Positions 3,822 through 24,980 of a stretch of DNA of 41,923 nt are shown one piece after another (positions within the stretch are counted from its first letter, which is position 1; every line of letters starts with the position of its first letter). The translations under genes were made by a program, and so were the position numbers. The notes beneath the pieces were generated by a model. The model was not told the DNA's origin, ran no database searches, and saw only the letters and a list, made by a program, of their open reading frames with translations. Origin of the DNA: a virus; IMG/VR virus record IMGVR_UViG_3300025896_000051, positions 1-41,923 of that record; one strand, given 5' to 3'.

Positions 3822-4018
3822 AGCGGATCCCTCGTCCACCAGGCCAGCGCCGACAGGAGCGCCGCGCACACCACGGCCAGAGCCACCACGAGCAGCACCA
3901 CGCGCACCGCCAGACGCGGCGGCGTGCCGACCGGAGCGTCGAGCTCGCGATCGGCGTCGACCGCGCGCTGCAGGGCTTGCTCCTCGAATTCGGAGTCTTC
4001 AGCGAACATCAGGGACAT
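3818..4018 (-). CDS. Single-TM membrane protein, 66 aa
   Basis: An acidic cytoplasmic-type N-terminus (about 36 residues, FAEDSEFEEQALQRAVDADR) is followed by one TM segment (VVLLVVALAVVCAALLSALA) and a short tail. GGAG lies eight bases before ATG 4018. The stop overlaps the next membrane gene's GTG, so the two small membrane proteins are translationally coupled and may act as a pair. Confidence 0.65.
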   Translation of the reverse strand: MSLMFAEDSEFEEQALQRAVDADRELDAPVGTPPRLAVRVVLLVVALAVVCAALLSALAWWTRDPL

Positions 4019-4208
4019 CGTCAGTCTCCAGGACAGAAGCCGAGCTGGTCGGCACGAACAATGGGCACTTGCCAGCGGGCCAGGCCGCTCGAGAGACGTC
4101 GAGCAGAACGGTGCGCGGCCGGAGCCACGGCAGAACCGGGAGGTTCTCGTTGCGCCGAGCGCACCGGGCGCACGACGCAGCAGGCGATGAGGGGCGACAC
4201 GGGTCCAT
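3999..4208 (-). CDS. Small Cys-rich protein, 69 aa
   Basis: It follows the P-like gene by eight bases and overlaps the next start by 20. A CARC pair (14-17) plus a later Cys (GKCPLFVP) recall the small zinc-knuckle proteins often found just after replication genes in siphoviruses. No function is known. ATG 4208 is the only reasonable start. Confidence 0.55.
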   Translation of the reverse strand: MDPCRPSSPAASCARCARRNENLPVLPWLRPRTVLLDVSRAAWPAGKCPLFVPTSSASVLETDDVPDVR

Positions 4209-4216
4209 GGCGATCG

Positions 4217-4804
4217 TCAGCGCGAGTGACGCATGCCGGCCGGCAGCTTCGTCGGGTCGACCCCGCGGTAGTCCTCCGGCACCGCGGCGCCGAGCGGACG
4301 GTTGGCGCGGGCCTCGCGCAACCACTGCCGCTGGCCCGGCGACAGCACCTCGCCACGCGCGACCTTGGCCTCCATCTCCTCGAGGCACGCGGTCGGCTTG
4401 CGCTGGCGCAGGGCCTCCACCGCACGACCGAGCTCGGCCGCCAGGCGGGTGCGATCGCGCGGCGGCGGCGGCAGCAGGTCCTGCTGCTTCGGTGGGCGAG
4501 CAGGAGCACGCAGGCACAGCGCGCGGAACTCCGGCAGGCTCGGCGGTCGCGGCGGCAGGTTCTCGAGCCCGTAGGAGATCGCCTCCGGGAAGGTTCGGAA
4601 GGCCCGCAGCTCGCGCTGCCAGTGGTCGCGCAGCGAGGCGACGTGCGCCTCCGGATCCTCGCCCTCCGGGCACTGCCAGCGGCGGTCGAACTCCGCGCCG
4701 TAGGCGGCGCGCATGGCGGCCCAGATGCGGTGCACCCAGGTGCCGGGCAGGAACGGGTCCAGGTCGGCGCTGGCGCGATCAGCCGACGCGACGGGATGGG
4801 ACAT
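4217..4804 (-). CDS. Replication protein P-like helicase loader
   Basis: The protein has 195 residues. Known P proteins bring the host DnaB helicase to the origin-bound O protein. The central part matches the pattern of lambda-P relatives: an aromatic-rich segment (WVHRIWAAM, then FRTFPEAISYGLENLPP) followed by PPSLPEFRALC. The C-terminal half is charged and helical. GGAGG lies six bases before ATG 4804, and the gene overlaps the upstream O-like gene by 26 bases. I base the call on that motif and on the O-P order; no helicase gene is seen, which fits use of the host's. Confidence 0.7.
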   Translation of the reverse strand: MSHPVASADRASADLDPFLPGTWVHRIWAAMRAAYGAEFDRRWQCPEGEDPEAHVASLRDHWQRELRAFRTFPEAISYGLENLPPRPPSLPEFRALCLRAPARPPKQQDLLPPPPRDRTRLAAELGRAVEALRQRKPTACLEEMEAKVARGEVLSPGQRQWLREARANRPLGAAVPEDYRGVDPTKLPAGMRHSR

Positions 4805-5855
4805 CGATGACCTCCGATGCCGGCGGCGCCGGCGAGCGAGCCGGAGAGCCCGGCGGATTGACCATGAGGTTGGCGGTGCGCAGCTGCGTGCTGACGCGGT
4901 CCGGAGCGGCCCGAGCAAGCGCCTGCCGGTCGGCCGGCTTGATCCATTCGGCCATGAGGCCCTGCGTGCCGCGGAAGCACCAGACGCGCAGGAAGTCCTC
5001 GAGCGAGAGCTTCGCCAGCGCGGCTTCACGCACAGCCTGCTCGAGCACCACGCCGCTGACCGGAGCGCGCTTCTTGCGCCGCAGATCCAGCCAGGCCGAC
5101 CAGACGTCGTCGGCGACATCAGCCGGTCGCTCGAGCTCTCCGGCGCCGGCACGCTTGCGAGGCTTGCGTTCTGGCGGAGCGTCGCCGAGCAGGTCGGGAT
5201 CGGGCCTCGGATCGCCGGAAGCGCTCTCTCCTACGGTAGTAGGAGAGATAGATAGTATTCCCTTCTCTTCTCTTCTCTTGGATGCTGTTTCACGCGGGAC
5301 AGCCACGTGACCGGGACGGGACTGTCCCTGTGACTTCACAGGGTCGTCCTCGTGAAGCGGCAGCGGAGCGCCAGCCGGGCAACCCAGGCTAATCCAGTGC
5401 TCGAAATCGGGAGTGGTCACTGACGTACCGTGCCGCTGGTTGTGCTTTCGCACGCGCGCGCACTCCGAAACCCAGCGCTGGCGGAGCTTCGAAGACCACG
5501 CATCGAGCGCGATCTCACAAGTGACCTTGTGGTACAGGCGCCCGTCGGAGCACTCCACGAAGCCGCGCAGAACCGAGTCACGAATCTGTCCCCAGGACAC
5601 ATCGATTTGTCCTCGTGACACGTACCCAGCCTTATCTGCGAGCCATCGGTCGTTGTTCGGCACCGAGCCGGCAGGCACCTCGTGCCACGCGGCGCACCAG
5701 AGCATCAGCGCGGCCCAGCAGATCTCCGGCGGTTGGTCGACCACGAGCTCGGAGCTTCGAAGCCGAGCGACGTCGAGGCCCATGCGCGGGAAGTCGCGCA
5801 GGTCGACCTCCGGCGGCACCAGGGGAGCCGGCCTGGGATCCGTCACGCCGCCCAT
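4779..5855 (-). CDS. O-like replication initiator (DUF1376-type N-terminus)
   Basis: The protein is about 358 residues. The N-terminal domain (about 10-140; WAALMLWCAAWHEVPAGSVP, then GQIDVSWGQIRDSVLRGFVE) is of the DUF1376 winged-helix kind found in phage initiators. A charged hinge (KRREEKG) follows, then a C-terminal helical region. It lies directly before the P-like gene, as lambda O does. ATG 5855 is used here; GTG 5846 would give the GTGA overlap typical of this operon. The hinge-coding DNA is unusually AT-rich and full of repeats, which is where lambda has its origin. Confidence 0.75.
   Translation of the reverse strand: MGGVTDPRPAPLVPPEVDLRDFPRMGLDVARLRSSELVVDQPPEICWAALMLWCAAWHEVPAGSVPNNDRWLADKAGYVSRGQIDVSWGQIRDSVLRGFVECSDGRLYHKVTCEIALDAWSSKLRQRWVSECARVRKHNQRHGTSVTTPDFEHWISLGCPAGAPLPLHEDDPVKSQGQSRPGHVAVPRETASKRREEKGILSISPTTVGESASGDPRPDPDLLGDAPPERKPRKRAGAGELERPADVADDVWSAWLDLRRKKRAPVSGVVLEQAVREAALAKLSLEDFLRVWCFRGTQGLMAEWIKPADRQALARAAPDRVSTQLRTANLMVNPPGSPARSPAPPASEVIDVPSRRVG
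5226..5343. other. Candidate replication origin inside the O-like gene
   Basis: The segment holds a perfect 9-bp inverted repeat with a four-base loop (5226-5247). An AT-richer stretch with several TTCTC units follows (about 5259-5280), then GGGACAG/CTGTCCC (5296-5302, 5322-5328), and a perfect 8-bp inverted repeat CCCTGTGA-ct-TCACAGGG (5326-5343). The 10-mer GTCCTCGTGA occurs at 5346 and again at 5609. Lambdoid phages place their origin in the O gene with iterons beside an AT-rich part, so an origin is a reasonable inference. Confidence 0.35.
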
Positions 5856-6688
5856 AGGCCTCCCGGAAGGCGCTGCAGCGCCGCGTCGCACGCAGGATTC
5901 AGCCAGGCGATCTCGCGGCGCACCTTGGTGCCGCGGCCGGCCGCGATGCGCGAGTCGGTCTCTTCGCGCCGCCAGTCGCCGAGCATGCCGGCGTAGAGCT
6001 CGGAGTCGTAGCCCGAGACGATCACCATGCCCTGCAGGTCCAGGAGCACCTCCAGGAGCTCGCCATGGTCCTCGTCGGACATTTCGTGCCGGTAGCCGCC
6101 ATTCGAGCGCATCACCCGGGTGCCGTGCAGGTAGGGCGGATCGATGAAGTGCAGCGTCGAGGGTGAGTCGTGCTGCCGGAGCACCTCCAGCGCCGGCCGG
6201 TTCTCGATGAGCACGCCCTGCAGCCGAGAGCCGACAGCAGCCAGGCCATCCGGGTACCGCGCCCAAAAGTTCATCGCGTTAGCGCTGGCCCGGCGGATGT
6301 CGGTCCGCATGCCGGTGCTCCGCTTGTTGGCGCCGTTGGAGCTGAAGCCCATCTGCGCGCGGATGCACAGCCGGCGCGCGCGCTCGATCGGGTCGTCGTG
6401 CTCCTCCCACGCCTCATCGAACTCGTCGCGCGCGAACGGAGTGAGGCGAAGCTGCTCGACCAGAGCGGCCCGCTGCTTCGAGTCGCGCAGCACGCGGAAC
6501 AAGTTCACCACCTCGCCGTCCAGGTCGTTGTACACCTCGCCGTGCGAGCGCGGCTTCTGCAAGAGCACGCCAGCGGAGCCGCCGAACGCCTCGGTGTAAC
6601 ACTCGTGCGCGGGAAAGAACTGCAGCAGCCACGGCGCCAGCCGGAACTTCGCGCCCATGTAGCGCAGCGCAGGCTTCGTCACGATCAC
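5843..6688 (-). CDS. DNA adenine N6-methyltransferase (Dam/D12 family)
   Basis: It methylates N6 of adenine in DNA using SAM. Visible blocks are YMGAKFRLAPWLLQFFP near the N-terminus (motif X region), AFGGSAGVLLQKP (SAM-binding motif I), and FIDPPYLHG (catalytic DPPY, near residue 180). The length of 281 is normal for this class. GTG 6688 overlaps the upstream stop (GTGA). With no cognate nuclease here, likely roles are protection from host restriction or control of replication and packaging. It is the second DNA methylase in this operon. Confidence 0.93.
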   Translation of the reverse strand: MIVTKPALRYMGAKFRLAPWLLQFFPAHECYTEAFGGSAGVLLQKPRSHGEVYNDLDGEVVNLFRVLRDSKQRAALVEQLRLTPFARDEFDEAWEEHDDPIERARRLCIRAQMGFSSNGANKRSTGMRTDIRRASANAMNFWARYPDGLAAVGSRLQGVLIENRPALEVLRQHDSPSTLHFIDPPYLHGTRVMRSNGGYRHEMSDEDHGELLEVLLDLQGMVIVSGYDSELYAGMLGDWRREETDSRIAAGRGTKVRREIAWLNPACDAALQRLPGGLWAA

Positions 6689-13299: not shown

Positions 13300-13523
13300 T
13301 GAACCCAGACACCGGTCACCTGTTCCGACTGCGCCGCGGAGAAGACGCGCCCGCCGGCACCGAGGTCCTGCCCGCCGACTTGCACCAGATCGCAAACCTC
13401 AAGATCAGGCGCGACCCCGATGCCAAGGTCAACCTGAAGTCCAGCACGCCGCTGGCCAAGTGGGCGAAGAAGAAGCGCCTCGAGCGCATCGCCGCGAAGT
13501 CCCGCCGGCGCAACCGCAAGTAG
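13299..13523 (+). CDS. Small basic protein, 74 aa
   Basis: An acidic and neutral N-terminal half is followed by a strongly basic C-terminus (KWAKKKRLERIAAKSRRRNR), which suggests nucleic-acid binding. It is translationally coupled to the gene before it. Unknown function. Confidence 0.55.
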   Translation: MNPDTGHLFRLRRGEDAPAGTEVLPADLHQIANLKIRRDPDAKVNLKSSTPLAKWAKKKRLERIAAKSRRRNRK

Positions 13524-13540
13524 AACCACCAGGAGCCACC

Positions 13541-14836
13541 ATGAATGACCATGCCAAGCGGCGCCAACCGCTCCCACCCCGAGATCCAGCCAGGAGCGAC
13601 ACCGAGCAGGGCCTGTTCCAGAAATTCATCGTCACCCGCACCGACGGCTCGAGCGGCCCGGGCGGCAAGCACGAACACTGCGAGTACTTCGTTCTCGACA
13701 TCGACCACGACCAGCACGCCATGCCCGCGCTCGAGGCCTACGCCCGCACATGCGCAGCGACGCACCCCGAGCTCGCGGTCGACCTGCAGCAGCGATACGG
13801 GCTGCCGGTGGACGCCACTATGCCGCCGACGGCCGAGCAGGTGCTGCGCCGGCGCGCTCACGCGATCGGCATCGCACGCGACATCGCCGATGCATTCAAC
13901 CGGGAACACAGCGATTGGGCGAACAGTGGCCCACTGTTCCGCAAGCTGGTCGATGAGCTGCTGACCGAGTCGGAGCTCGTGCGCGCGATCGCCGCGTGGC
14001 ACCGGGCCACCGAGCGCATGGTGGACGGCACGCCGCCCGGACACGAGGTCGAGAGCGACCGCAGCATCAGCGACCGCGCGCGAGGCCTGCTGGCCCAGCT
14101 CGAGGCGCTCGGCATTCGCAGCGTCCTGAGCGCGCACCACGAGGAATGGTGGCGGATCCACGGCGACCACGAGCGCCTGCAGCGCGAGGTCCTGCAGGTG
14201 CTGCACGACGGCCTGCGGGCCCGCCAGCGTGCCGCCGGCGGACTGGTCAGCCAGGCGCAGAGCGATGCCGCGGTCGAAGCGCTGGCCAGCGCCGAGATGC
14301 CGCACGCGGTACCGGGCCGAGCTCGCGATCTGGCCGCATGCCTGGAGAACTTCAGCCGCACCAGCCGGATGGGCGGTTCCTGGACCGTTGGCATGGCGGT
14401 TGACTTCCTCCAGCAGGTGGCTGACCACTGGAACCGACGCCCGGCAGCTGGCATGAATCTTTCCAGGGAGAGAGCGCCCGCGGTGCACGCCACACCGGTG
14501 CTACTCGAGACGACCGCGCTATGGGCGGGAGCGCAGACCAGCCAGAGCGACGGCGCCGTGCACTTCACCCGCGAGGCCTGGGAGAAGTTCGTGCAGGCCC
14601 TCGGCGCCGAGCCGCCGCTCGAGATCCTGGTCAGCCCGACCGATAGCGTGCGTGCCGACCAGGTGCACCAGCGGTGCGCCGAGCGCGGCTGCCAGGAAGC
14701 GCTGACCTGCCCGGCCGGTCGGTGCGTGATGTTCGACCGCCAGCAGCCCTGCGGCTGCCGCGAGGGCGAGTGCGAGAGCAAGCCCGATCGCGCCTGCAGG
14801 ATGACTCGCGAGATCCAGGAAGGGGGACACCAGTGA
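13541..14836 (+). CDS. Composite accessory protein, 431 aa
   Basis: ATG 13541 has AGGAGCC upstream. An N-terminal domain (about 15-85; LFQKFIVTRTDGSSGPGGKH, then CEYFVLDIDHDQHA) is one I recall as a recurring module in multi-domain phage proteins. The middle is helical (DIADAFNREHSDW to VEALASAEM). The C-terminal 50 residues hold eight Cys (CAERGC, TCPAGRC, CGCREGEC, RAC), a likely zinc cluster. Several unrelated small modules appear to be fused; the function is unknown. Confidence 0.6.
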   Translation: MNDHAKRRQPLPPRDPARSDTEQGLFQKFIVTRTDGSSGPGGKHEHCEYFVLDIDHDQHAMPALEAYARTCAATHPELAVDLQQRYGLPVDATMPPTAEQVLRRRAHAIGIARDIADAFNREHSDWANSGPLFRKLVDELLTESELVRAIAAWHRATERMVDGTPPGHEVESDRSISDRARGLLAQLEALGIRSVLSAHHEEWWRIHGDHERLQREVLQVLHDGLRARQRAAGGLVSQAQSDAAVEALASAEMPHAVPGRARDLAACLENFSRTSRMGGSWTVGMAVDFLQQVADHWNRRPAAGMNLSRERAPAVHATPVLLETTALWAGAQTSQSDGAVHFTREAWEKFVQALGAEPPLEILVSPTDSVRADQVHQRCAERGCQEALTCPAGRCVMFDRQQPCGCREGECESKPDRACRMTREIQEGGHQ

Positions 14837-22660: not shown

Positions 22661-22876
22661 ATGGCCACCAGGATCAAGCCGCCGGCGGTGCTCGAGCAGC
22701 CGCTGACCTTCACGCGGGCCGACCCGGCGGAGCTCGAGCGATTCGACCCGGCAACGAAGATCTGCTCGATGAACTGCGGGCCGCACCGAGACGACCCACG
22801 CACGCCAGCGGAGCGGAAGCTGCTCTGTACGGAGTGCTGGCCTAACGCGGAGCTAACCGGCCGCCGTGGTGGATGA
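22661..22876 (+). CDS. Small Cys-rich protein ending inside attC site 1
   Basis: The protein has 71 residues with Cys at two CxxxC/CxxC-like positions (CSMNCGPH, LCTEC). Its last dozen codons (PNAELTGRRGG) are supplied by the attC1 site. Such PNAELTG endings are a recognisable by-product of attC sequence read in this frame. The ORF was either a cassette gene or was altered when the attC arrived. Confidence 0.55.
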   Translation: MATRIKPPAVLEQPLTFTRADPAELERFDPATKICSMNCGPHRDDPRTPAERKLLCTECWPNAELTGRRGG

Positions 22877-22927
22877 CAGCGAGCGGAGGACCGCCTATAG
22901 GCGGTCCGGTTCAGCGCACTGTTGGGC
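22840..22927 (+). other. Integron attC site 1
   Basis: R'' box GCCTAAC (22840-22846), five-base spacer, L'' GCTAACCGG (22852-22860); then L' CCGGTTCAGC (22906-22915), five-base spacer, R' GTTGGGC (22921-22927). The arms pair when the strand folds, except for one extra base in L' (C at 22912), the asymmetry that lets integron integrases choose the strand. The central part has a perfect 20-bp palindrome (22888-22907). Confidence 0.85.
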
Positions 22928-23255
22928 GGCGGCCACGTAGGAGCAACGACATGGACATGCAGCAACTGAGGCGACGCCACATAGCGGCCACAGCGCGCCG
23001 GCTGGCCCGCGCCAAGGCCGAGCAGGAGTACAGCGAGTACATGCACGCCCAGGCGGCCATGGATGATGACTGGTGGGACGACGATGGCCCCGAGCGAGAC
23101 ACGACGTGCCACGTTTGCGGAGGCAGCGGAGGCGACCCGTGGAACGATGGGATCACGCCCTGCGAGCACTGCGACGGGGAAGGCTACGAGTGGTGGCAGT
23201 GAGCACGACGCCCAACCAGGAGATCACCGGCGCGTAGCGTCCGGTGGATCGGACG
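22922..23255 (+). mobile_element. Integron gene cassette (334 bp)
   Basis: The stretch between the G/TT cut points of the two R' boxes has the standard cassette order: short leader with RBS, one ORF in the same direction, and its own attC seven bases after the stop. No integrase gene is in the window. Confidence 0.8.
22951..23202 (+). CDS. Cassette gene: DnaJ-type zinc-finger protein, 83 aa
   Basis: TAGGAGC precedes ATG 22951. A helical basic N-terminal half (QLRRRHIAATARRLARAKAE) leads through an acidic Trp-rich stretch (DDDWWDDDGPE) to two CxxCxGxG-type elements (CHVCGGSGG and CEHCDGEG). These are half of the four-repeat DnaJ zinc domain, enough for one zinc site. Two-repeat versions occur in many small proteins, as RNA/DNA or chaperone cofactors. 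The function is unknown. Confidence 0.75.
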   Translation: MDMQQLRRRHIAATARRLARAKAEQEYSEYMHAQAAMDDDWWDDDGPERDTTCHVCGGSGGDPWNDGITPCEHCDGEGYEWWQ

Positions 23256-23261
23256 TTAGGC
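23210..23261 (+). other. Integron attC site 2
   Basis: R'' GCCCAAC (23210-23216), five-base spacer, L'' GATCACCGG (23222-23230), ten-base loop region, L' CCGGTGGATC (23241-23250), four-base spacer, R' GTTAGGC (23255-23261). The arms pair with one extra G in L', at the same position in the arm as the extra base of attC1. The site lies between the last plus-strand gene and the convergent lysis genes. Confidence 0.85.
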
Positions 23262-23269
23262 CCGGCCGG

Positions 23270-23776
23270 TCACGGCGCCGGCTTCAGCGCGCGGTACTGC
23301 CGCTCGCAGACGTCGCGGGCCCTGGCGGCACCGTCTGCAAACTCGATAGTTCCCGCTTCAGCCTCGTCCAGCCTTCGGCGCAGGTAGGCTGACAGATCGC
23401 GGGCCTCGGTGGCTCCAGGGCCTCCGCCGCCAGCTCCGGGATCGCCGCCACAGGCACGGGCTTCGAGAGCGGCGAGACGGTCGCGCAGCTCGCCAGCAGC
23501 AGACTGCTGCTCGAGCAGAGCAGCGCGAGCACGCGCCGCGGCTTTCCTGGCTTCATCGATTGCCCCCTTCTTCTCCGCCTCGCGCTGCTGGGTGGCAGCC
23601 TTGGCTTCAGCCGCACTGGCGGCACGCTCGGCGACGGCCGCCGCCTTGGCCGCTTCGAAGTCGGCGCGCACCTGCCGCTCCTGGTGCCGGTGCCAGCCGC
23701 CCCAGGCCAGCACCGCGGCGAGCACCCAGGCCCAGGTCGGAATGCCGCTGGCCAGCGCGAGCGCGGCTCGGATCAC
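23270..23776 (-). CDS. Rz: Rz-like inner-membrane spanin subunit
   Basis: GTG 23776 overlaps the endolysin stop. An N-terminal membrane anchor (about 10-26; TWAWVLAAVLAWGGW) is followed by a long periplasmic coiled coil of Ala/Glu/Arg (about 30-105), a Gly-rich break, and a C-terminal helical part. This is the i-spanin design, 168 residues. It spans the periplasm with Rz1 and fuses inner and outer membranes in the last lysis step. Confidence 0.85.
   Translation of the reverse strand: MIRAALALASGIPTWAWVLAAVLAWGGWHRHQERQVRADFEAAKAAAVAERAASAAEAKAATQQREAEKKGAIDEARKAAARARAALLEQQSAAGELRDRLAALEARACGGDPGAGGGGPGATEARDLSAYLRRRLDEAEAGTIEFADGAARARDVCERQYRALKPAP
23284..23556 (-). CDS. Rz1: Rz1-like outer-membrane lipoprotein, nested in Rz
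   Basis: The frame lies fully inside Rz, as in lambda. From ATG 23556 a basic start (KPGKPRR) and hydrophobic stretch lead to the lipobox LLLASC; Cys near 24 would carry the lipid. The rest contains the Pro-spread sequence expected of Rz1 (SPLSKPVPVAAIPE, EPPRPAICQPTC). At 90 codons it is close to the usual 60-90. Confidence 0.82.
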   Translation of the reverse strand: MKPGKPRRVLALLCSSSSLLLASCATVSPLSKPVPVAAIPELAAEALEPPRPAICQPTCAEGWTRLKRELSSLQTVPPGPATSASGSTAR

Positions 23777-24609
23777 GACCAGCCCTCGGAGCGCTGCTCG
23801 CGGCGCTTCGACAGGATCCACCAGCCCACGGCGATCAGCGCGATGGCCAGCAGGCCGCCAGGCGGGATGCCGACGAAATCGGCCACAGAGCCGACCAGGC
23901 CGCGGATGGCACCCAGCGCACCCTGGACCGGCTCGAGCGCAGCCTTGGCCCCGTCCGCGGCCGCGGTGACCTCCTGCAGCACGGGAGCCATCTGCGTGGC
24001 CGCAGTGACCGCGCCGGCGCCGATGGTGACGGCAGAGCCCTGCGCGATGGGAGAGCGCGCCAGGCTGGACTCGGCCTCCACCGCCTGCGGCATGCGATCG
24101 ACGCCGAGCTCCGGCGTGAGGTACAGCGCTGCCTCGCGCGCGCGCCGCGCGGTCAGCCCGTCTAGGACCTCGCGCTTCCCGGTGCGCGGGTTCTTGGCCT
24201 TGTTCCACAGGGCGAACGCACGCGCCGCCGCCTGCCGGTTGCCGGCGTTGTGCTGCCGGAGCACGGTCGACCGCGCCAGAGCCGCCAGGCCGATGTTGTA
24301 CGCGAGCACGACCAGCGCGCCCAGCTCGTTGGGCGACGGCTCGACCTTGCAGAGGTCGCGCACCGCGCGCACGCGCTCCTGCAGGTCCTCGAGCAGCCAC
24401 GCGTCGGCCTGTTCCTTGGTGCACCGGTCGCCCGGGCGCACGCCGTCGGTCTCGCCCCAGCCGATCGTCCAGACGCCGGCCGGGCACCGGTAGGCAACCG
24501 GCGCGAAGCCGCCGTCCGGGCCCTGCTCGTACTCCGCCAGGAGAGCGACCGCCTCGAGCGGGATCGGCCACTCGAGCGCCGGATCCGGGAGAACGAACGG
24601 CCGCCTCAC
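23773..24609 (-). CDS. Endolysin (GH24 lysozyme/muramidase) with C-terminal TM
   Basis: The protein has 278 residues. The lysozyme domain is N-terminal: Glu about 28 (AEYEQG), Cys 42 and Thr 48 in YRCPAGVWTIGWGET form the E-(D/C)-T triad of the T4/P1 class. CTKEQADAWLLEDL and LVVLAYNIG follow. About 100 further residues and a TM segment (GGLLAIALIAVGWWILSKRR) end the chain, so the enzyme may be held in the inner membrane by its tail rather than by an N-terminal SAR. GTG 24609 overlaps the upstream stop. It degrades peptidoglycan at lysis. Confidence 0.88.
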   Translation of the reverse strand: MRRPFVLPDPALEWPIPLEAVALLAEYEQGPDGGFAPVAYRCPAGVWTIGWGETDGVRPGDRCTKEQADAWLLEDLQERVRAVRDLCKVEPSPNELGALVVLAYNIGLAALARSTVLRQHNAGNRQAAARAFALWNKAKNPRTGKREVLDGLTARRAREAALYLTPELGVDRMPQAVEAESSLARSPIAQGSAVTIGAGAVTAATQMAPVLQEVTAAADGAKAALEPVQGALGAIRGLVGSVADFVGIPPGGLLAIALIAVGWWILSKRREQRSEGWS

Positions 24610-24980
24610 GGCTTGCCCCTGCCGCCGGCGACGTGGCGCAGCGCGCCAGGCGGGACCTGCTGCACTCGAGCGGTGCCGGCCGGCGGCGCGGATCGCCACC
24701 GCTTCACGCTCATGAGCAGGAACACCAGCACGCCGGCGCTGGCGCAAGCCGCCGCCCACTCGGAGTGCTGCGCGAACGAGAGCAGGATCGAGCCGAACAT
24801 GGCCACGGCGAGCACTGCGTGCTGCACGAACACCGCCAGCGAGGTCACGCCGCGCATCATCTTTGCCACGCGGCAACCGAGCATGACGCAGACGAAGCCG
24901 GCGACGGCCACGTTGATCACCACCGGCAGGTGGTAGAGCGCCACGGTCCAGAGCGCCTCGAGCACATCGGTCGCGTTCAT
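24606..24980 (-). CDS. Membrane protein, holin candidate
   Basis: The protein has 124 residues with three likely TM segments (about 12-35, 45-65, 68-90; e.g. LPVVINVAVAGFVCVMLGC and FVQHAVLAVAMFGSILLSF) and a basic, Pro-rich cytoplasmic tail. That topology and its place directly upstream of the endolysin fit a class I holin. Translation is coupled through ATGA on one side and GTGA on the other. Confidence 0.6.
   Translation of the reverse strand: MNATDVLEALWTVALYHLPVVINVAVAGFVCVMLGCRVAKMMRGVTSLAVFVQHAVLAVAMFGSILLSFAQHSEWAAACASAGVLVFLLMSVKRWRSAPPAGTARVQQVPPGALRHVAGGRGKP

Follow-up and report, generated by a model that had tools for sequence, protein, structure and literature searches.

A two-site attC array in a phage, with a cassette gene that reads against the predicted polarity of its attC site

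Clusters of attC sites lacking an integron integrase (CALINs) have been reported in phages, and IntI1 recombined five of the six phage attC sites tested (Qi et al. 2023, PMC9892861). In integrons the choice of the bottom strand of attC serves the sense insertion of the cassette gene behind the Pc promoter (PMC8946536, PMC11023631). It is chiefly the first extrahelical base that sets this strand, and shifting its place moves recombination to R'', the other outer box (PMC2727003). An orientation anomaly is also known from the reverse integrons of Treponema, where the integrase gene and the cassettes point the same way because the former has been turned (PMC4909258).

The window examined here, a stretch of 41,923 nucleotides of viral DNA analysed in full, belongs to a phage with RecE, RecT, a tape measure protein, tail fibre protein J, a major tail protein, a head-tail adaptor and an endolysin; no terminase was found in its record (G000). 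Early genes on the plus strand and late and lysis genes on the minus strand converge at one point, and the array lies there, at the early/lysis junction described in the first-pass annotation. Upstream is an early gene of 71 amino acids (22661-22876, plus) whose 3' end extends into attC site 1; no family matched it, and no relatives appeared in the viral search. The neighbouring late/lysis gene encodes the endolysin (23773-24876, minus; phrog_7, E 2.1e-47). The array consists of two attC sites, and the integron integrase model TIGR02249 has no match in the record. It is thus a small, CALIN-like array in a true phage, as had been proposed, and not a complete integron. Two other genes of this phage may be mentioned. 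A D12-class adenine methyltransferase (PF02086, E 3.6e-13) is encoded at 5843-6688 (minus), towards the left end and outside any attC, and an early-region protein at 13460-14836 (plus) matches a sulfatase-modifying factor family over a short stretch (phrog_9572, E 9e-22), which is unusual for a phage.

Read on the plus strand, site 1 (22840-22927) is GCCTAAC-gcgga-GCTAACCGG...CCGGTTCAGC-gcact-GTTGGGC and site 2 (23210-23261) is GCCCAAC-cagga-GATCACCGG...CCGGTGGATC-ggac-GTTAGGC. On the minus strand, which is the canonical reading, they become GCCCAAC agtgc GCTGAACCGG ... CCGGTTAGC tccgc GTTAGGC and GCCTAAC gtcc GATCCACCGG ... CCGGTGATC tcctg GTTGGGC. Both have the attC order R''-L''-VTS-L'-R' with AAC and GTT cores and paired arms, the VTS of site 1 being about 50 bases long, and the four boxes of each are exactly as first quoted. 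A box-and-arm scan of the plus strand, with a pattern that is its own reverse complement, matched these two sites alone in the window (strict control, 0.025 hits per shuffled window).

Sites were scored with a covariance model, R1, built in-house from 25 short bacterial attC sites in canonical orientation and distinct from the model of IntegronFinder; in its training alignment 94% of pair cells were formed and nine pairs had changed on both sides. The polarity convention was checked with a training site, GTCTAACAATTCAATCAAGCC..., which we take to be an aadA7-type sequence, and again with the depositor-annotated phage TJE1, where attC and genes have the same sense. When both strands of the window were searched with filters off, site 1 scored 43.7 bits (E 5.2e-9) on the minus strand vs 14.4 bits on the plus strand, and site 2 scored 32.4 bits (E 3.8e-6) vs 16.3 bits; the best other place in the window reached 10.5 bits. 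An Rfam search of the window gave no match. Site 1 is supported by the R1 score and the arm scan, site 2 by the R1 score. A covariance-model check of the kind proposed earlier, made with R1, came out in favour of both sites, on the minus strand.

The position of the extra base points the same way. It had been noted at the same place in one arm of both sites as the asymmetry used for strand choice, and it is indeed present in both; on the plus strand the right arm carries it. In a normal attC it is the top strand's left arm that does, so the arrangement is the mirror image of the normal one and the canonical polarity of both sites is minus; an extrahelical base in L'' is found only on the minus-strand reading. 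On the canonical top strand this base is G in site 1 and C in site 2. The bulged base of site 1 on the folding strand is C, where G is usual, and the spacer of site 2 has four bases, so that recombination activity is perhaps reduced. Predicted DNA folding, another of the checks suggested, favours the expected strand of site 1 (-23.4 vs -19.8 kcal/mol) but not that of site 2 (-11.1 vs -12.7 kcal/mol). To judge from these sequence features, 22840-22927 and 23210-23261 are genuine attC sites of minus polarity.

With attC on the minus strand, the boxes that are cut are the left ones and the attC of a cassette is at the 5' side of its gene. The predicted exchange points (22845/22846 and 23215/23216) then fall within GCCTAA^C and GCCCAA^C, and the predicted mobile cassette is 22846-23215 (370 bases, no strand assigned), made up of the body of site 1, a ribosome-binding site and the gene, with site 2 as the resident site that received it. 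These limits are based on attC polarity, the box swap, the block ends in shuffled phage arrays and the end of homology with the viral contig L155, which for the cassette is at 23216. Excision of 22846-23215 would leave an empty site GCCTAAC...GTTAGGC and a circle GCCCAAC...GTTGGGC, both perfectly complementary, whereas sites 1 and 2 as they stand have one mismatch each between their outer boxes. The segment is thus a gene cassette in having complementary boxes in the circle between two exchange points. It is not a canonical one, in which the gene has the sense of the attC and the attC is 3' of the gene, because here the gene is plus and the attC minus.

The first-pass annotation had set the cassette at 22922-23255 and had joined a ribosome-binding site, one ORF and its attC into the unit. 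The ribosome-binding site (AGGAG) and the ORF at 22951-23202 are real, but the gene's own attC is the one 5' of it, and the limits must be moved to 22846-23215 in view of the minus-strand attC and of shuffled blocks that end on left boxes. A canonical cassette at 22922-23255, with the gene in attC sense and the attC downstream, would yield identical box pairs, so box complementarity alone cannot decide the orientation; R''/R' pairing as proof of orientation was rejected for the same reason, since the pairs come out alike whichever way the cassette is read. The region does have a classical look, with a stop codon eight bases ahead of site 2 and, past GTTGGGC, a short 5' leader. This reading is nevertheless very improbable, because R1 gives 14.4 and 16.3 bits on plus vs 43.7 and 32.4 on minus, the extra base would be in the wrong arm, cassette blocks common to two other phage records (G025 and G012) end at left boxes, and the orientation counts described below are 101:0 and 120:3.

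The signature of a circular intermediate can be sought in arrays generally. Among neighbouring pairs in viral arrays, an outer box is perfectly complementary to its circle partner in 88/121 cases vs 30/121 for its own hairpin partner, and the corresponding numbers in bacterial arrays are 113/156 vs 33/156. By this measure of box complementarity, the circular-cassette signature appears as strong in viral arrays as in bacterial ones. The pattern is unexpected for static hairpins, and it bears on the idea that the two sites are chance attC-like structures, e.g., bidirectional terminators where the early and late operons converge. Both the location between convergent gene blocks and the strength of the hairpins would suit terminators, but the boxes, spacers and bulge are conserved, the E-values are 5e-9 and 4e-6 with just two hits in 42 kb, and relatives of the endolysin occur without such sites. 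A chance origin is hardly credible. The endolysin relatives in question (L157-L163) have no attC but are distant; no close relative of the phage, with or without the cassette, was found.

The cassette gene (22951-23202, plus) encodes 83 amino acids, reads against attC polarity and has homologs in L137, L155 and L187. Its ribosome-binding site, AGGAG at 22939-22943 (plus), is seven bases upstream of the ATG at 22951. An alternative in-frame ATG at 22873-22875 (plus), in the VTS of site 1, would give 109 amino acids and overlaps the stop of the upstream gene as ATGA; the start at 22951 is favoured because the proteins of L155 and L187 begin MNMQQLRRR. The CxxCxGxG zinc pattern claimed for the protein is borne out by two such knuckle-like motifs, although the match to the DnaJ zinc finger (PF00684) is weak (E 0.025) and below the cut-off. 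In PHROGs only one PHROG of unknown function is weakly matched. Homologs in other viral contigs are 51-72% identical; against INPHARED, no relative of the protein and no match to the DNA of the locus were found. Relatives of the gene also occur in viral contigs without any attC nearby, namely L187 (72%, at a contig end so that only its 3' side is visible) and L190. The gene thus appears, from its relatives, to be a phage gene that also exists outside cassettes and not a typical bacterial cassette gene. A role for this zinc-knuckle protein in early host takeover or counter-defence is a guess.

The same reversed layout is found in many unrelated phage contigs. Searching with one half-site of the window as a pattern retrieved 33 viral stretches and 100 bacterial loci, and a second pattern, based on the other half-site, added more viral loci. 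R1 attC sites were present in 35/35 viral records tested, with up to 16 per record. The sense of genes between neighbouring attC sites was called by codon models for short ORFs, in GC bins; an orientation test by longest ORF was dropped as too ambiguous in GC-rich DNA. With the first pattern, 101 viral genes read against attC polarity and none with it, and with the second, 120 read against and three with it (37 contigs reversed, two sense, six undecided), these being counts of segments and not of independent lineages, some from overlapping contigs, with 15 + 30 viral segments (first + second pattern) lacking a gene call and 4 + 8 ambiguous. Many viral contigs are fragments, with terminase in 8/35 and 7/38 records. 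In bacterial loci of the first pattern, 70 genes read with attC polarity and 21 against it, 15 of the latter in the phage-like loci L083, L084, L085, L087 and L115; L083 (Azoarcus) has RecT nearby and L087 a minor tail protein. The spring-water phage MW202573 has four attC sites on the minus strand and all overlying genes on the plus strand, a layout read from the depositors' genes and independent of the codon-model calls. Taken together, the sequences indicate that a gene against attC polarity is the rule in viral contigs.

The only two viral contigs of the second sample with sense arrays, L228 and L244, are short, lack terminase and are possibly fragments of bacterial integrons. An integron in L180 (G043:C13, 488-4941), with an IntI gene at 3862-4941 (3961-4935 by a narrower placing), has cassette genes against attC polarity. 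The layout is therefore not exclusive to phages, and reversed cassettes may have come from this integron, or entered it, on the cellular side.

Among 141 viral attC sites followed by a called gene, 125 have a ribosome-binding site with four or more matched bases. In 38/125 of these the gene starts within the attC, so that the N-terminal residues of the cassette protein come from translation of the site's right half. The other viral cassette genes mostly start about 20-45 bases past the start of the right box, and that of the window starts at 30. Recurrent N-terminal peptides, GPVERxVRP and LSEGLG, are encoded in two reading frames by the attC sites of L137, L147, L139 and L145.

The claim that phages can move cassettes is upheld by cassettes common to other phages. 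Records G025 and G012 have five common blocks of more than 200 bases, 96-100% identical, whose order differs between the two (A,X,C,D as against A,D,C). Four of the five right ends fall 7-15 bases past the point where the next left box starts. Of the five left ends, two lie 0-2 bases from a left box, two are inside an attC, and one coincides with a CCCTAACG box without an R1 call. In the parts compared, there is almost no nucleotide match between the two records outside the array and its flank. One cassette is common, box to box, to L141 and the bin contig L084 (91%). In L145 there is a phage cassette, its left end at the box, that matches a cassette of the Rubrivivax bin contig L085 at 98% identity. 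The latter two loci (L145:6080-6302, in phage record G023, and L085:1-344) also have the same tandem repeat, and L085 looks like a relative of the G023 phage. These comparisons show that whole cassettes have been shuffled between other phages, most block ends falling on the predicted box; homologous recombination by phage RecET-type enzymes could account for part of the shuffling.

It might be argued that the sites are relics, inserted once by an integrase and inactive in phages now, with all later reshuffling homologous or illegitimate. The records do lack an integrase over the cut-off, the phage of the window has RecE and RecT, and the bulge of site 1 is atypical, yet reordered cassettes are 98-100% identical with ends in a box of seven bases where homology stops, and the circle-partner statistics nearly equal those of bacterial integrons. 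We regard this as unlikely.

No integron integrase over the cut-off was found in 35 first-sample and 38 second-sample virus records. Short IntI-like pieces occur in two virus records with reversed arrays (L225, G075:C1:10745-11096, 84.5 bits; L258, G088:C1:18420-18620, 63.7 bits) and are perhaps decayed IntI genes. Among genomes with canonical arrays, IntI is present in 11/12. It is also found elsewhere in hosts of reversed arrays, i.e., G040, G043 and the isolate Pseudothauera rhizosphaerae CC-YHH848, where the prophage L016 is identical to L039 (100% over 6.7 kb). The reversed attC of this prophage are at C8:125089-125573, and IntI is encoded on that contig too, at a distance of 118 kb (C8:7247-8191). 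Because the virus records lack IntI over the cut-off and hosts of reversed arrays have it, supply by the host in trans is the likeliest route. The recombinase is presumably the integron integrase of the host, and insertion of the cassette into the phage by that enzyme, as first suggested, is plausible. A recombinase encoded by the phage is the other candidate. Tyrosine recombinases of phage type occur in 11/36 records searched (seven with arrays and four endolysin relatives in which no attC was found), but this presence is inconsistent, none is in the window and none exceeds the IntI cut-off, which makes the candidate distinctly unlikely.

Most viral cassette proteins belong to no family. Pfam matches among 135 of them include N6/N4 methylases (6), C5 methylases (2), Mom (2) and Lar (2), as well as Dam, MT-A70, D12 and RNA ligase, and PHROGs agrees. 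A reversed cassette at L147:13495-13797 (minus) encodes an Acb2/Tad1 hairpin-like protein (E 2.6e-4, below the Pfam cut-off); members of this family are anti-CBASS and anti-Thoeris sponges.

Our preferred reading, which we hold to be probable, is that the locus is a two-site, integrase-less attC array of the reversed type that is the rule in viral contigs, with the cassette 22846-23215 in the resident site 2. Each cassette would have its attC first, on the 5' side, and then a gene read against attC polarity. A host integron integrase acting in trans would recombine the folded bottom strand of attC, in these phages the strand that codes for the cassette genes. Since a Pc promoter would read these genes antisense, they are probably expressed by read-through from early phage transcription. 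Transcription by the phage may in turn expose the recombining strand, the coding strand being the recombinogenic one. The pool as a whole may provide accessory early genes that can be exchanged, among which anti-restriction and other counter-defence functions stand out. A broader proposal, offered only tentatively, is that phages keep a reversed cassette pool of their own, with starts in or just past attC and a coding strand that is also recombinogenic and maybe exposed by transcription, from which host integrases shuffle a counter-defence kit, the counterpart of the defence genes in bacterial integrons.

Strand choice at attC is thought to serve a sense landing behind Pc, and near-uniform antisense arrays, widespread and confined almost to viral contigs, need another logic. 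Testable questions follow. Do host integrases move genes between phages, does phage transcription aid attC folding, and are integrons a common arena of defence and counter-defence? There is a practical side as well, in that tools built on canonical polarity may cut reversed cassettes at the wrong box.

Clusters of attC in phages are already known; a search of open-access papers found no report of reversed gene/attC polarity as a rule. Canonical cassettes of class 1 and sedentary chromosomal integrons have the same attC architecture, box swap and circles, but their genes follow attC polarity, opposite to the present locus with its attC 5' of the gene. The Treponema integrons (PMC4909258) are similar in having an orientation anomaly; the present locus is not of that type, since it is the gene that is turned relative to attC and there is no integrase. 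Similar in layout is the integron G043:C13 in the Sulfuricella MAG, with attC on minus and cassette genes on plus, which differs in its adjoining IntI; its contig appears bacterial solely from the arrangement of its genes. The phage CALINs of Qi et al. 2023 (PMC9892861) resemble the present array in their attC clusters, small genes, lack of integrase and DNA methyltransferase cassettes; gene sense relative to attC polarity is not treated in the main text of that paper. As scored here, its TJE1 array is canonical and its MW202573 array reversed. Unlike TJE1, both the locus described here and the recurrent viral type are reversed, the recurrent type often with a start codon inside the attC.
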